From: a virus
IMG/VR virus record: IMGVR_UViG_3300046750_000743
Location: 1 to 64,000 of that record
Direction: 5' to 3' (one strand)
DNA: 64,000 bases
Made by a program: the position numbers and the translations under genes. This document shows positions 37,456 to 42,129 of the stretch, one piece after another; positions within the stretch are counted from its first letter, which is position 1; each line of letters opens with the position of its first letter. The notes beneath the pieces are model-generated. The model did no database searches and was not told where the DNA came from. It saw only the letters and a program-made list of their open reading frames with translations.

Positions 37456-38193
37456 ATGGCTAATAAAAATGACGTAAAAAGAGCACTTGCGGGTGATAGG
37501 AATCTATCAGGTGCGGATCTCAGAAATGCGGATCTAACTGAAGCGAATCTTGAAGGTGTGGATCTTGACGGTGCGAAGCTCTCAGGTGCGGATCTAACAG
37601 GAGCGAATCTTTTTGGTGCGAAACTTATAGGAGCGAAGCTCTCAGGTGCGGATCTAACAGGAGCGAATCTTTTTGGTGCGAAACTTATAGGAGCGGTTCT
37701 CATAGATGCGGATCTCAAGGGTGCGAATCTTGAGGACGCGAATCTTGAGGGTGCGGATCTCACAAATGCGGATCTCAGAAATGCGTATCTCTGGAATGCT
37801 AAACTCGCAGGTGCGAAACTTGGCGGTGGGAATCTCACAGATGCGAATCTTAAGGATGCTAAACTCACAGGTGCGGATCTAACAGGTGCGAAGCTAGTAA
37901 GAGCGGATCTCAGAGGTGCGAAGCTCCTAGGTGCGGATCTCATTGAGGCGGATCTCAGAAAAGCTAAACTCAGAGGTGCGGATCTATCAGGTGCGGGTCT
38001 ATCAGATGCGAAAGGCATACCTCTGTCTATCTCTGATAAATTCCCCCACAAGGGAGAGACGGTCGAAGAAAAAGCCCGCAGAGAGAAAGAGGAAAAGGGA
38101 GGTCGCAAAGCTTCTCAGATCCGCGTAGCTTCTCGGATGAATAGAGAGCTTCAAAGAGAGATCAAAGCCTTGAAGAAGGATCTCAACCGATAG
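37456..38193 (+). CDS. Pentapeptide-repeat protein A
   Basis: 245 residues. Residues about 13-185 are unbroken A(D/N/K)LxGA pentapeptide repeats, which fold into a right-handed quadrilateral beta-helix. The C-terminus (GIPLSISDKFPHKGETVEEK) and a basic helix with ASQIRVASRMNREL follow. Some pentapeptide proteins mimic DNA and inhibit gyrase; many have unknown roles. A 60-bp unit is exactly duplicated at 37573-37695. The stop codon lies inside the duplicated leader of protein B. Confidence 0.88.
   Translation: MANKNDVKRALAGDRNLSGADLRNADLTEANLEGVDLDGAKLSGADLTGANLFGAKLIGAKLSGADLTGANLFGAKLIGAVLIDADLKGANLEDANLEGADLTNADLRNAYLWNAKLAGAKLGGGNLTDANLKDAKLTGADLTGAKLVRADLRGAKLLGADLIEADLRKAKLRGADLSGAGLSDAKGIPLSISDKFPHKGETVEEKARREKEEKGGRKASQIRVASRMNRELQREIKALKKDLNR
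37573..37695 (+). repeat. 60-bp exact tandem duplication
   Basis: Bases 37573-37635 are identical to 37633-37695, an exact in-frame copy of four pentapeptides. The absence of any substitution suggests a very recent expansion. Confidence 0.9.
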
Positions 38194-38273
38194 TTTCTCT
38201 ATCGAGCCTCTCTTTGTGAACACAAGTAACAAGGAGCATAATCATGGCTAATCCAAATGACGTAAAAAGAGCA
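38188..38273 (+). repeat. Duplicated leader and start region
   Basis: Near-identical to about 37400-37485: leader hairpin remnant, the stretch CCTCTCTTTGTGAACACAAG, SD AAGGAG and the first codons MANxNDVKRALxG. It records duplication of the pentapeptide gene. Confidence 0.85.
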
Positions 38274-39317
38274 CTTGAAGGTGCGAAACTTGGAGATGCA
38301 GATCTGACAGGAACTCATCTCAAGAATGCAGGAGGGATACCTCTGTCTATTTCTGACCAATTCTCCCACAAGGGTGAGACGGTAGAGGAGAGAACCCGAA
38401 AAGAGGTAAAAAGAGCGAGCAAGGTTGGTCTTCCGCAACACGCTACAACAGAAGACATCGCAATCTTCATTGCCGATAGGAGCGAGGTAGACGAGAATTG
38501 GGCTGATTTAGATGATCGTATTGATGACGCTTTGCGTAGCTTAAAACTTCAAATAAATACTCTCGATATAAAGATGGTTACTCAGCGTTTTGATTACATT
38601 GAGATCATCGGGTCTCCAGGTCCTCGAAAAAGAAAGATAGTGATCACTTATGATTGGAAAGGGAAGACCCTTTCTGTTGAAAGGGTCGGAGGAAAGAGGA
38701 AGCCTAAAAATCCTGTTAAGAGAGGGAGTGACGCATCTAAGATGCTCAACCAGCTCCAGAGAGAGACCCTACAAGAACTTGAGTTAAGAGTCGCTTCCCT
38801 TGAGAGGGAAGCGGGGGTCATTGATCGTGTAAAAAGGATGTTTTCAAGCTGGGAGACTTTAGCCCGATCTGGGGAAAAAGACCTTGAGGGTGCTAACCTC
38901 AGTGGTGCTAACCTCAGTGGTGCTGACCTTGAGGGTGCGAACCTCACGGGAGCTGACCTCAGTAGGGCGAACCTCCAGCGGGCTGACCTCATAAAGGCGA
39001 AGCTCAGGGGGGCTGATCTCACAGGGGCTTACCTCGAAGGAACAGACCTCGAAGGTGCTAACCTCATAGAGGCTGATCTCAGAGAGGCAAAGTTCATAGG
39101 GGCTGACCTCAGAGGGGTATACCTCAGACGGGCTGACCTTCGTGGGGCTGACCTCACAAAGGCTGACCTCAGAGACGCGAAGCTCACAGGAGCTGACCTT
39201 GAGGGTGCGAACCTCAAAGGGGCTAGAAATCTGACCCTAGAGCAGCTCCTCTTAACCAAAAACTACCATCTAGCCAATAGTCTCCCACCCGACCTCACCC
39301 ACCTCCTTTCTCGTTAG
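38244..39317 (+). CDS. Pentapeptide-repeat protein B
   Basis: 357 residues. It begins like protein A (MANPNDVKRALEGAK) with only a few repeats, then the shared GIPLSISDQFSHKGETVEE block, a unique folded region about residues 60-145, a coiled-coil segment ETLQELELRVASLEREAG (near 175), and a long pentapeptide array about 212-335. So it is a mosaic: protein A pieces with an inserted domain. Its function is unknown. It follows protein A with an SD AAGGAG. Confidence 0.88.
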   Translation: MANPNDVKRALEGAKLGDADLTGTHLKNAGGIPLSISDQFSHKGETVEERTRKEVKRASKVGLPQHATTEDIAIFIADRSEVDENWADLDDRIDDALRSLKLQINTLDIKMVTQRFDYIEIIGSPGPRKRKIVITYDWKGKTLSVERVGGKRKPKNPVKRGSDASKMLNQLQRETLQELELRVASLEREAGVIDRVKRMFSSWETLARSGEKDLEGANLSGANLSGADLEGANLTGADLSRANLQRADLIKAKLRGADLTGAYLEGTDLEGANLIEADLREAKFIGADLRGVYLRRADLRGADLTKADLRDAKLTGADLEGANLKGARNLTLEQLLLTKNYHLANSLPPDLTHLLSR

Positions 39318-39333
39318 TTTATTTATCTAACCC

Positions 39334-39357
39334 CTCTCCCTACTACTAAGAGGAGAG
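39334..39357 (+). promoter_or_regulatory. Short hairpin over the SD of pentapeptide gene C
   Basis: CTCTCC/GGAGAG (6 bp, 12-nt loop); GAGGAGAG is the SD of ATG 39362. Weaker than the hairpins at 5220 or 58535 and without a TATA box in the loop. Confidence 0.35.
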
Positions 39358-39361
39358 AACC

Positions 39362-39616
39362 ATGAGAAAGACAGCGAGAGAGACCCTGCAAGAACTTGAT
39401 TTAAGAATAGCTTCCCTTGAGAAGGAAGCTCTCTTTGGTCTGTTTGAGTCTCCTCTGGAGAAGATAAGGGCAGGGGAAAGAGACCTCAAAGGATCGAACC
39501 TTAAGGGGGCTGACCTCACAGGGATGGTACTCAGCAGGCATGACCTACTCACAAGAAGAGTCCGAGCGAGGATCATCCGTGATGAGGACGGCAGCACGAT
39601 AGCAATCGGAAGATAG
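39362..39616 (+). CDS. Short pentapeptide paralogue C (probably truncated)
   Basis: 84 residues. The N-terminus ARETLQELDLRIASLEKEA repeats the coiled-coil of protein B, and only three or four pentapeptides remain (ERDLKGSNLKGADLTG) before a divergent tail (RRVRARIIRDEDGSTIAIGR). It looks like a shortened duplicate of the C-terminal half of protein B. A decayed leader copy follows at 39633. Confidence 0.7.
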   Translation: MRKTARETLQELDLRIASLEKEALFGLFESPLEKIRAGERDLKGSNLKGADLTGMVLSRHDLLTRRVRARIIRDEDGSTIAIGR

Positions 39617-39714: not shown

Positions 39715-39743
39715 GAAATACACTAATCGCCATTGGAGAAACA

Positions 39744-41345
39744 ATGTGGGTGATACCAAAGAACTTAAACATCTCTCCCTCTGTGCAGGCTACGGAGGGA
39801 TTGATCTTGGACTCAAAAGAACTCTCGGATCTATCAGAACAGTCACTTTTGTGGAGATCGAAGCCTTCGCAGTCTGCAACTTGGTCTCGAAGATGGAAAA
39901 AGGGCTTATTGAGGCAGCACCTGTATGGACGAATCTTAAAACCCTCGATTGGGAAATCTTCCGTGGAAGAGTGGATCTCATCTCAGGAGGCTTCCCTTGT
40001 CAGCCCTTTTCTGCCGCAGGACGAAGACAAGCAGACTCCGACCCTAGACACCTCTTCCCACACATCCTCAGAGGAGTCAAAGTTTGCCAACCTTCCGTTG
40101 TTTTCCTTGAAAATGTCGAAGGAATCCTCTCCGCAAAACTCAGCTCTGAAGGATGGTCAGACCCAAAAGGGGCATCGGTTCTGCTCCATGTGCTTCGAGA
40201 ATTGGAAAGGGTGGGTTATGAGGCGACGGCAGGGGTATTCTCAGCGAGAGAAGTCGGTGCTCCACATAGGAGGAAACGAGTCTTCATACTTGGTATTAAA
40301 AGAGGTACCGAAAGAGAAAGCTTGGAATGGGTCAATGAGCTCATTGAACGAAACCGAGACACAAGTGGCTCTGTATACCCCTCCTCAAGAGGAAGAGAGC
40401 AATACTCATGGGAGCCTCCAAGAGTCACTATGGAGAAGCCCAGCTACGACAGAAGTAGGGGTGGAGGAAGTATATACGAAGGCGGGGGAAACATGGAAAG
40501 GGGAGGGGAGAGCCTATCGGAAGAACGGGGTACTCAAACAGGTGACATTAGGGGTGCAGATCCAAGCGACAATGCAAGAAAAGAATTGGCCAACTCCAAC
40601 AACGCAGGAAATACATCACAAAGAGATAACTCTGACGAAGACGGTTCGAAGAAAAGCGAAGGGTTCACATCCAGCCGTAATGAAGTTGAATCCGAGATGG
40701 GTAGAGACGTTGATGGGGCTTCCGATAGGATGGGTGCAGCCAAGCTGTACGAGTCCTTTGACAATAGAACGGACGAGCTCAGAATGCTTGGAAATGGAGT
40801 TGTCCCAGATACTGCAAGAAGAGCATTCACCGACCTGTGGGCAGAATTGGTCAACTCCCCCAGCTTCACAGAGGGGTGAGAACCTACGGCACTACATATC
40901 AAGAATGAGAAGTCGCTTAGAGCAGGGCAAGGAGACCTTTGCACCTACTCTTCAAGTACAAGCCGAAGCTGAAGAGAGAGGTGTCGATATAGGGGACTCT
41001 ATATGGGCAACTCCGCGAGCCCTGCAAAATGGGGTGACTTTAGAAGCCCACCTTAAGAGACAAAAGAGCCTAATAGAGCAAGGCAAAGAGACCTTCAGAC
41101 CTCCGCTTCAAGTACAAGCTGAAGCTGAGGAGAGAGGCGTAGATATAGAGGACTCTATATGGGCAACTCCAAATACAATGGACAGCTTGCCCCTGAGGTC
41201 AGAAGAGGCACTAAGAAGACAAGCAACTACAATCCGCAAGGGTCGAACCTCCCCCGCTAACTTGAGGGAACAGGTAGACCCTAAGAGCTGTGCTATTTAC
41301 GCCTCTGAAAACAACAAGTTCAAAGGTCAAGTCTCCCTTATTTAA
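39744..41345 (+). CDS. Long ORF overlapping the methyltransferase (WxTP-repeat protein)
   Basis: 533 codons open without interruption; ATG 39744 shares the SD TTGGAGA with the methyltransferase GTG two bases later, in another frame. It has recognisable conserved-looking parts: LPLFSLKMSKESSPQ and ENWKGWVMRRR (about 120-160), five W(A/P/S)TP or WRSP motifs, and MKLNPRWVETLMGLPIGWV (about 313-331), which I remember from proteins encoded at phage C5-methylase loci. Codons 379 onward lie beyond the methyltransferase and include a 52-residue-offset repeat of GKETFxPxLQVQAEAEERGV. It could be a second protein of the modification system. No enzyme fold recognised. Confidence 0.62.
   Translation: MWVIPKNLNISPSVQATEGLILDSKELSDLSEQSLLWRSKPSQSATWSRRWKKGLLRQHLYGRILKPSIGKSSVEEWISSQEASLVSPFLPQDEDKQTPTLDTSSHTSSEESKFANLPLFSLKMSKESSPQNSALKDGQTQKGHRFCSMCFENWKGWVMRRRQGYSQREKSVLHIGGNESSYLVLKEVPKEKAWNGSMSSLNETETQVALYTPPQEEESNTHGSLQESLWRSPATTEVGVEEVYTKAGETWKGEGRAYRKNGVLKQVTLGVQIQATMQEKNWPTPTTQEIHHKEITLTKTVRRKAKGSHPAVMKLNPRWVETLMGLPIGWVQPSCTSPLTIERTSSECLEMELSQILQEEHSPTCGQNWSTPPASQRGENLRHYISRMRSRLEQGKETFAPTLQVQAEAEERGVDIGDSIWATPRALQNGVTLEAHLKRQKSLIEQGKETFRPPLQVQAEAEERGVDIEDSIWATPNTMDSLPLRSEEALRRQATTIRKGRTSPANLREQVDPKSCAIYASENNKFKGQVSLI
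39746..40879 (+). CDS. DNA cytosine-C5 methyltransferase
   Basis: 377 residues from GTG 39746. Motif I LSLCAGYGGIDLGL (10-23), motif IV GGFPCQPFS with catalytic Cys85, motif VI LENVEG (121-126), motif VIII GAPHRRKRVFI (about 174-184) and the last motif RMLGNGVVPDTA (about 349-360) are all present. The target-recognition region (about 190-340) is oddly low in complexity and rich in S, G, E, R and N; this is exactly where the overlapping frame is most conserved-looking. It may protect phage DNA from restriction. Base specificity cannot be predicted. Confidence 0.9.
   Translation: MGDTKELKHLSLCAGYGGIDLGLKRTLGSIRTVTFVEIEAFAVCNLVSKMEKGLIEAAPVWTNLKTLDWEIFRGRVDLISGGFPCQPFSAAGRRQADSDPRHLFPHILRGVKVCQPSVVFLENVEGILSAKLSSEGWSDPKGASVLLHVLRELERVGYEATAGVFSAREVGAPHRRKRVFILGIKRGTERESLEWVNELIERNRDTSGSVYPSSRGREQYSWEPPRVTMEKPSYDRSRGGGSIYEGGGNMERGGESLSEERGTQTGDIRGADPSDNARKELANSNNAGNTSQRDNSDEDGSKKSEGFTSSRNEVESEMGRDVDGASDRMGAAKLYESFDNRTDELRMLGNGVVPDTARRAFTDLWAELVNSPSFTEG
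40920..41180 (+). repeat. 156-bp-offset repeat in the overlapping ORF
   Basis: A block beginning GAGCAGGGCAAGGAGACC (40920) recurs at 41076, 52 codons later, and continues through ACTCTATATGGGCAACTCC. The repeat preserves only the 39744 frame, which supports that frame being translated beyond the methyltransferase stop. Confidence 0.75.
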
Positions 41346-41370
41346 CTCGTCCCCTTGTAGTTTTTTGATA

Positions 41371-41390
41371 ATAGGTAATACCTATAAAAT
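41371..41390 (+). promoter_or_regulatory. Promoter with overlapping operator-like palindrome
   Basis: ATAGGT-AAT-ACCTAT (41371-41385) overlaps TATAAAAT (41383-41390), 25-30 nt upstream of ATG 41413. A protein binding the palindrome would block the -10 element. No regulator is identified. Confidence 0.4.
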
Positions 41391-41412
41391 CAATACCAGA
41401 AAAGAGGAGAAC

Positions 41413-42129
41413 ATGGGATCAACAGATTTCGTAGATGAGGGTCGAGGGTCAAACGCGAGTGTGGTCTTCAAGGAGCTAGTAAGGGACGCAAAAAGTTACT
41501 ATGGCAATAGTCCCTATGGAGGTCACATCGGCCTAAAAGATGGCTTCGTAATGCATACCAAAGAAGTCGTCACACAAAGACAAGCTCACAACATGGCTAA
41601 TGAAGCGATGAGCCGACCGCCGTATAAATATGGCAAATGGGATTACGCAGGGGCAATTGCCTACGGCGAAGAGAAGGTTGTGGCTTCAAAGGAGTTTGAA
41701 GTCACAGTAAAAGCAAGAGATAGAGGCGAAGCCACAGATCTCATACTTGCGAAGATGAGGGGCGGGCGAAAGAGGCAAGGTACGACCGTCGAGGTCAAGA
41801 TTAACTCGATTAATAAAACTGCTGAAGCAGGTAAGAGGAATCTAACTCGCACAAAGTCAAAAGGTTCTTTTTACTACACTTTCCCTAACGGCGAAAAGTA
41901 CCCCACGTTGAAGGAAGCGACGGAGGCTCTCAGTGTCTACCTCTCTAACCCCAACAGCCGAAACACTGTGCCAGGGAAAGAGTATAATATCAAAAAAGTA
42001 CAAGAATTTGGGTCGATCTCTTATCAGGAATCGTCGAAGTTGCCTACATACACTGTAAAAGGTGTTCGCAATCAAGTTAAGGTTGGGAAAGTCAAAGGCT
42101 ACCTGTTCTTCGGGTCGGCACCCAACTAA
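41413..42129 (+). CDS. Hypothetical protein
   Basis: Start set at ATG 41413 (SD AGAGGAGAAC), within a longer open frame beginning at 41290. 238 residues; basic, with a possible small beta domain (KEFEVTVKARDRGEATDLIL, like a crossover strand-helix) followed by a region with FYYTFPNGEKYPTLKEATEA. Not recognised. Confidence 0.62.
   Translation: MGSTDFVDEGRGSNASVVFKELVRDAKSYYGNSPYGGHIGLKDGFVMHTKEVVTQRQAHNMANEAMSRPPYKYGKWDYAGAIAYGEEKVVASKEFEVTVKARDRGEATDLILAKMRGGRKRQGTTVEVKINSINKTAEAGKRNLTRTKSKGSFYYTFPNGEKYPTLKEATEALSVYLSNPNSRNTVPGKEYNIKKVQEFGSISYQESSKLPTYTVKGVRNQVKVGKVKGYLFFGSAPN

Follow-up and report, generated by a model that had tools for sequence, protein, structure and literature searches.

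What is encoded by a 533-codon reading frame that encloses, in another frame, the whole of a phage cytosine-C5 methyltransferase gene? The locus lies in a stretch of 64,000 nucleotides (the window) belonging to a 105-kb virus record which, judging from its terminase, ribonucleotide reductase, clamp loader, and UvsX-like genes, is a large tailed phage. A reading made from the letters of this DNA alone (here called the sequence-only reading) had drawn attention to the two overlapping frames and to the single Shine-Dalgarno sequence that serves them, and both the coordinates and the shared signal proved correct. We call the longer frame A and the enclosed methyltransferase frame M; A is in the +1 frame relative to M, and the two overlap for 1.1 kb.

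Two frames with a fused start

The features that define the locus and its start are the following.

39735..39738, plus strand: GGAG, a Shine-Dalgarno-like sequence common to both start codons (from sequence)
39744..39748, plus strand: ATGTG, the overlapping dual start formed by A's ATG (39744) and M's GTG (39746) (from sequence and conservation)
39744..41345, plus strand: frame A, ATG start, 533 amino acids, proposed overprinted beta subunit (+1-frame homologues, dual-frame constraint, dN/dS)
39746..40879, plus strand: frame M, GTG start, 377 amino acids, proposed alpha subunit (PF00145 at 1e-36, TIGR00675, PDB profile matches to M.HhaI and M.HaeIII, AF2 model)

The ATGTG overlap is kept in 102 of 104 related loci, and Shine-Dalgarno-like motifs occur within 16 nt upstream of the start in 82 of the 104. 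For M, the GTG is the sole possible upstream start in 57 loci; the next start lies a median of 35 codons downstream of it, beyond motif I. Loci of the type found in Escherichia coli phage N15 have the start of A inside M, with its own GGGAGG Shine-Dalgarno sequence upstream.

The flanking DNA has features of its own. Immediately upstream of the methyltransferase (window 37456-39616) are three consecutive plus-strand open reading frames (ORFs) rich in A(D/N)LxxA pentapeptide-like repeats, whose antisense frames are open for up to 251 codons, probably as a by-product of the repeats. The ORF downstream of A (window 41290-42129) has its first start, GTG 41290, inside the end of A, and an ATG near 41413 looks better.

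Relatives were gathered first with A as query, and A was in the +1 frame at all 84 loci so obtained. A later search used the motifs of M only and recovered 161 distinct loci, a set that includes the window's own copy and the same phage's second methyltransferase. A match to A, always in +1, was present in 160 of the 161, so the association is not an artefact of A-based searching; the one locus without it is that second methyltransferase, which is built differently and has a closed +1 frame. Homologues that retain M while carrying stops in the long frame, which the sequence-only reading had named as the observation to look for, were absent, A being open in these same 160 of 161 M homologues. 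In bacterial genomes A occupies the +1 frame in 78 of 80 relatives, which span several phyla including Bacillota, Bacteroidota, Pseudomonadota, and Nitrospirota, and among phage records a related nested frame occurs in E. coli phage N15, for example. In no locus examined was A found apart from M. The arrangement is common in phages and bacteria and is rarely annotated. At one locus (L013, 3000-6201) A runs about 1.8 kb past the stop of M, reaching 1067 codons, another case of a beta frame growing outside the overlap.

Selection on both frames

The openness of A was compared with a null model in which the codons of M were shuffled synonymously and stops were counted in the +1 and +2 frames. For the window gene, 5000 shuffles gave an expectation of 7.1 ± 1.8 stops in +1; none of the 5000 was free of stops, and the observed number is zero. 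Across 70 loci, 0 stops were observed in +1 against 459 expected, the +2 control frame fitted the null (1496 stops versus 1582 expected), and at 63 of the 70 no synonymous shuffle reproduced a stop-free +1 frame. The translation of A is also conserved: over 346 pairs of relatives its identity is 36% (22% shuffled) and its BLOSUM score 1.33 (0.19 shuffled). The +2 frame is raised less (30% versus 22% identity, BLOSUM 0.59 versus -0.02), an effect expected from nucleotides frozen by A.

Most relatives carry an internal control, in that the stop of A precedes that of M by about 50 nt. Synonymous codon identity in M is 0.618 under open A (0.371 shuffled) and 0.312 just downstream of the stop of A (0.310 shuffled). 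It is highest, at 0.85-0.91, opposite the modules and motif IX of A described below; these overlap M residues 227-339, the low-complexity region that the sequence-only reading had suspected of being constrained by the other frame, and the suspicion is borne out. Constraint is also evident at the opposite end of the gene, with an A-frame identity of 0.45-0.50 (null 0.24-0.27) across M residues 1-80. In the 466 nt of A past the stop of M, comparison of the window with a related locus (L007) gave dN 0.14 and dS 1.39, a dN/dS of about 0.1; within the overlap dS drops to 0.35 in both frames.

Both frames are real and under selection. This follows directly from the shuffle test, codon identity, and dN/dS, on which the earlier claim that the second frame is functional now stands; the interval 39744-40879, where a lack of purifying selection on A was to count against that claim, is under purifying selection in A.

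Motif IX and the W-x-T-P modules of the second frame

M matches PF00145 and C5 methyltransferase structures in the PDB (M.HaeIII, M.HhaI) as far as motif VIII, with a further PF00145 match at motif X. The PF00145 hallmarks I, IV (PCQ), VI (ENV), VIII, and X are all present, and the invariant columns of the M alignment are PCQPFS, ENV (VI), H-R-R, and GN-V-P. The AF2 model has a confident catalytic core (residues 1-205) and a motif X helix (340-369), separated in part by a disordered stretch at residues 227-339, where a recognition domain would be expected. Pattern search and the AF2 model revealed neither motif IX nor a folded recognition domain within the M chain. The description of M as a methyltransferase with all its motifs therefore has to be corrected: M has I-VIII and X, and the missing IX is LNPRWVETLMGLPIGW of A. 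The layout of A comprises an N-terminal domain, W-x-T-P modules, motif IX, and a tail past the stop of M, and the elements of the two frames are placed as follows.

39744..40283, plus strand: N-terminal part of proposed beta, residues 1-180, opposite alpha motifs I-VIII (A-frame identity above null; confident helix)
40424..40762, plus strand: low-complexity stretch of proposed alpha, residues 227-339, predicted disordered, opposite the beta modules and motif IX (pLDDT below 50)
40431..40586, plus strand: beta module 1, W-R-S-P ... LGVQI (alignment; W230 and P233 invariant)
40587..40685, plus strand: beta module 2, WPTPTTQE... (clusters with modules of other loci)
40686..40736, plus strand: motif IX in beta, LNPRWVETLMGLPIGWV (alignment, predicted helix, position relative to X)
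40787..40807, plus strand: motif X in alpha, LGNGVVP (G-N, V, and P invariant; IX lies 34 codons upstream in the DNA)
40848..41003, plus strand: beta module 3, WSTP..., straddling the stop of M, with the first repeat copy from 40918 (repeat, dN/dS)
41004..41159, plus strand: beta module 4, WATPRALQ..., with the second repeat copy from 41074 (88% identical 97-nt repeat)
41160..41345, plus strand: beta module 5, WATPNTMD...NLREQVDP, and the C-terminus, outside the overlap (module type match)

In ordinary C5 enzymes motif IX follows the pattern L-T-P-R-E...L-Q/M-G-F/Y-P, and the resemblance of LNPRWVETLMGLPIGW to this pattern is one of four grounds for its assignment. The second is a helix predicted by AF2 at A residues 317-324 (pLDDT about 86). 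The third is its spacing to motif X, which is canonical and collinear (34 codons in the window, median 21 in relatives). The fourth is provided by Streptomyces relatives, whose M frame itself contains IX, 31 residues before X. An alignment of 37 sequences has L, E, and LMG invariant and N, P, and WV nearly so. A recognizable motif IX was present in A at 139 of the 161 loci of the M-only search, and a pattern search found it in the M frame at 0 of the 161. The partition of motifs between the frames is thus observed directly.

The boundary between frames has moved in a few relatives. In two Streptomyces loci (L316 and L318) the +1 frame retains only the N-terminal part and LPTP modules, and with IX in the M frame the frame boundary is shifted relative to motif IX. 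At L048 motifs IX and X stand together in the A frame, and at L289 the M motifs run straight into the A modules and IX, in frame; these joined frames may be natural fusions or sequencing indels. Motif IX, being in the M frame in Streptomyces, in the A frame at most loci, and with X at L048, can occupy either frame.

Searches with A as a whole gave a match to PHROG 1008, labelled DNA methyltransferase. Pfam and NCBIfam contain no family for A-type proteins, and a PDB sequence search with an A profile returned chance matches only. AF2 modelling of A alone gave a confident helix at residues 151-175 and mostly low confidence elsewhere (mean pLDDT 49.6), and a fold search found no PDB match; with a model that is mostly disordered and an empty fold search, no structure is assigned to the modules.

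Related loci carry 0 to 8 W-x-T-P modules in A, with a median length of 44 residues; nearly all follow the N-terminal domain and precede motif IX. Three modules of the window lie downstream of motif IX, either across the stop of M or past it; the type of module 5 precedes motif IX in most other loci. The repeat that had been noticed past the methyltransferase stop is confirmed (97 nt at 40918 and 41074), and its copies diverge with dN 0.08 and dS 0.73. Loci with catalytic backbones 31-44% identical share modules at 85-89% identity, the two identities are nearly uncorrelated (Spearman 0.11), and about half of the modules shared by diverged loci sit at a different position. On these direct sequence comparisons, modules move between phages with almost no dependence on the catalytic backbone. 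They most likely choose the target DNA sequence, like exchangeable recognition domains; this analogy draws on their swapping between phages and on their location, which is that of the target-recognition domains in ordinary and multispecific C5 enzymes. Given the low confidence of the A model and the lack of a PDB match, the modules may not be folded recognition domains at all but linear motifs.

A proposed split enzyme, its rivals and its relatives

The locus very probably encodes a split, two-subunit C5 methyltransferase of the M.EcoHK31I kind, with M as catalytic alpha subunit and A as an overprinted beta subunit that supplies motif IX and probably target recognition. Frame M would give an alpha chain with the AdoMet-binding and catalytic motifs I-VIII plus X and a disordered linker replacing the small DNA-recognition domain. 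Frame A, initiated two bases earlier at the common ribosome-binding site, would give a beta chain contributing the N-terminal domain, the W-x-T-P array, and motif IX, which in ordinary C5 enzymes positions the recognition domain. From the sequence we infer that both proteins are translated and assemble into one active enzyme, in which the beta modules would pick the DNA sequence; in this phage the extra modules would follow IX, past the alpha stop. Its likely purpose would be self-methylation of phage DNA against host restriction. The proposal of a functional second frame in the sequence-only reading is supported; that A supplies the missing motif IX had been overlooked, and with it the split enzyme.

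That reading had left open whether both proteins are made or frameshifting joins them. Programmed +1 ribosomal frameshifting would fuse M and A into a single chain with motifs I-VIII followed by modules and IX, and since both frames are open throughout, a shift anywhere would yield a long fusion; the in-frame join at L289 is a natural example of such a chain, and L048 holds IX and X together in the A frame. We nevertheless consider frameshifting unlikely. A has its own start, conserved in 102 of 104 loci, and the constraint on its N-terminal sequence over M residues 1-80 would serve no purpose were A translated solely through a shift downstream of motif VIII; this conserved start and N-terminal sequence favour separate initiation. 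An M-A fusion would moreover miss motif X, which remains in M, and A of the N15 type starts within M with its own Shine-Dalgarno sequence. Of the two outcomes proposed earlier, separate initiation is the one that fits better.

It is similarly improbable that A is an independent protein, merely overprinted, with a function unrelated to methylation. The absence of a Pfam or NCBIfam match and the uninformative AF2 model would suit such a protein, but in most loci the motif IX missing from M is present in A, IX is back in the M frame in Streptomyces relatives, the PHROG match is to a DNA methyltransferase label, and no locus examined had A without M. That the second frame is no gene at all, its openness being a by-product of codon usage or of conservation of the M protein, is exceedingly improbable. 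A+G-rich coding DNA can reduce stops in a shifted frame, but the synonymous-shuffle null fails in the window and finds no match in 63 of 70 loci, which rejects pure codon bias as the cause; constraint on M ends at the stop of A, and A continues for 466 nt without M at a dN/dS of about 0.1.

The two-subunit reading has a close parallel in M.EcoHK31I of E. coli (YGGCCR), whose small subunit, said to be 176 amino acids long, is reportedly encoded in another frame within the gene for the large one, according to work by Lee et al. in 1995. The alternate-frame beta overlapping alpha would be one likeness. In M.EcoHK31I the large subunit has motifs I-VIII and X and the small subunit IX, and the title of the original paper, as cited there, states that two proteins are required (PMC3404938). 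The likeness drawn here is in motif partition (large chain I-VIII and X without IX, small chain with IX). The predicted recognition domain of M.EcoHK31I was placed in the large subunit, not the small (PMC3404938), which counts against a recognition role for beta. The present locus differs in the placing of beta, which begins two bases upstream of alpha, spans it completely, and runs on for another 466 nt; in the length of beta (533 amino acids against the 176 given above); and in its shuffled module array.

M.AquI, which has IX and X together in its small subunit (PMC3404938), is alike, as are similar split C5 methyltransferases, in placing catalytic and recognition parts on separate chains. 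It differs in being split at the end of the large subunit and not overprinted; here X stays in M, the variant L048 alone having both motifs in the A frame. The same phage record holds a second C5 methyltransferase in two slightly overlapping genes (101958-102728 and 102718-103137; L326 1492-2262 and 2252-2671), with I-VIII in the first and IX and X in the second, as in M.AquI; with this pair besides the A/M locus, the phage carries two enzymes split in different ways.

Multispecific C5 methyltransferases of Bacillus temperate phages carry several target-recognition domains in one enzyme and so protect against several restriction systems (PMC12707154). The modules of A likewise form an array that falls between motif positions VIII and IX, but it belongs to a separate, overprinted subunit and its role in recognition is putative. 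Among phages, homologous overlapping pairs are found in Paenibacillus larvae phage Diva (gp49/gp50), where the annotation treats gp50 as internal to gp49, and at gene 58 of E. coli phage N15, whose nested +1 frame carries a LNPHHSRWLMGLP motif and has a Shine-Dalgarno sequence of its own inside the gene. In both, unlike the window, beta is shorter and starts inside alpha; the N15 beta is unannotated. The N15 nested frame (L331 1555-2280) has a GGYQGGRIRNGKLSTDRLDV module resembling one in the environmental phage contig L194. A second frame is also hidden in a phage methylase gene in the ShiLan element, where it encodes an HNH endonuclease (PMC11855218). A hidden homing endonuclease of this type was rejected here: that of ShiLan is inserted, whereas A extends over the entire methylase gene and gives no Pfam match to HNH.

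The partition of motifs is thus known from the 1995 precedent. The breadth of the phage family, the fused start, the near-complete overlap, and the module shuffling appear to be unreported in the openly searchable literature. Two papers on Paenibacillus phages do not discuss the overlap, and term searches of the GeneTack and recoding papers did not turn up the arrangement.

A wider generalization, possible although we would stop short of calling it probable, is that phages and bacteria share a large class of C5 enzymes whose specificity resides in an overprinted subunit built from a common, shuffled library of W-x-T-P modules of about 44 residues. A module swap would alter the target in one frame and a tolerated disordered linker in the other, and ATGTG would set the subunit ratio. 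As a natural instance of dual coding the locus is a strong one: the overlap exceeds 1 kb, and the stop of the second frame supplies an internal control. Annotation treats many phage and prophage cytosine methyltransferases as single, complete proteins; the relatives of M, however, lack motif IX and appear to need an unannotated partner from the same DNA. This could help to explain orphan enzymes that are inactive when cloned alone or codon-optimized, since recoding would destroy beta. If the modules set specificity, they would provide a readable code for phage methylation and counter-restriction.
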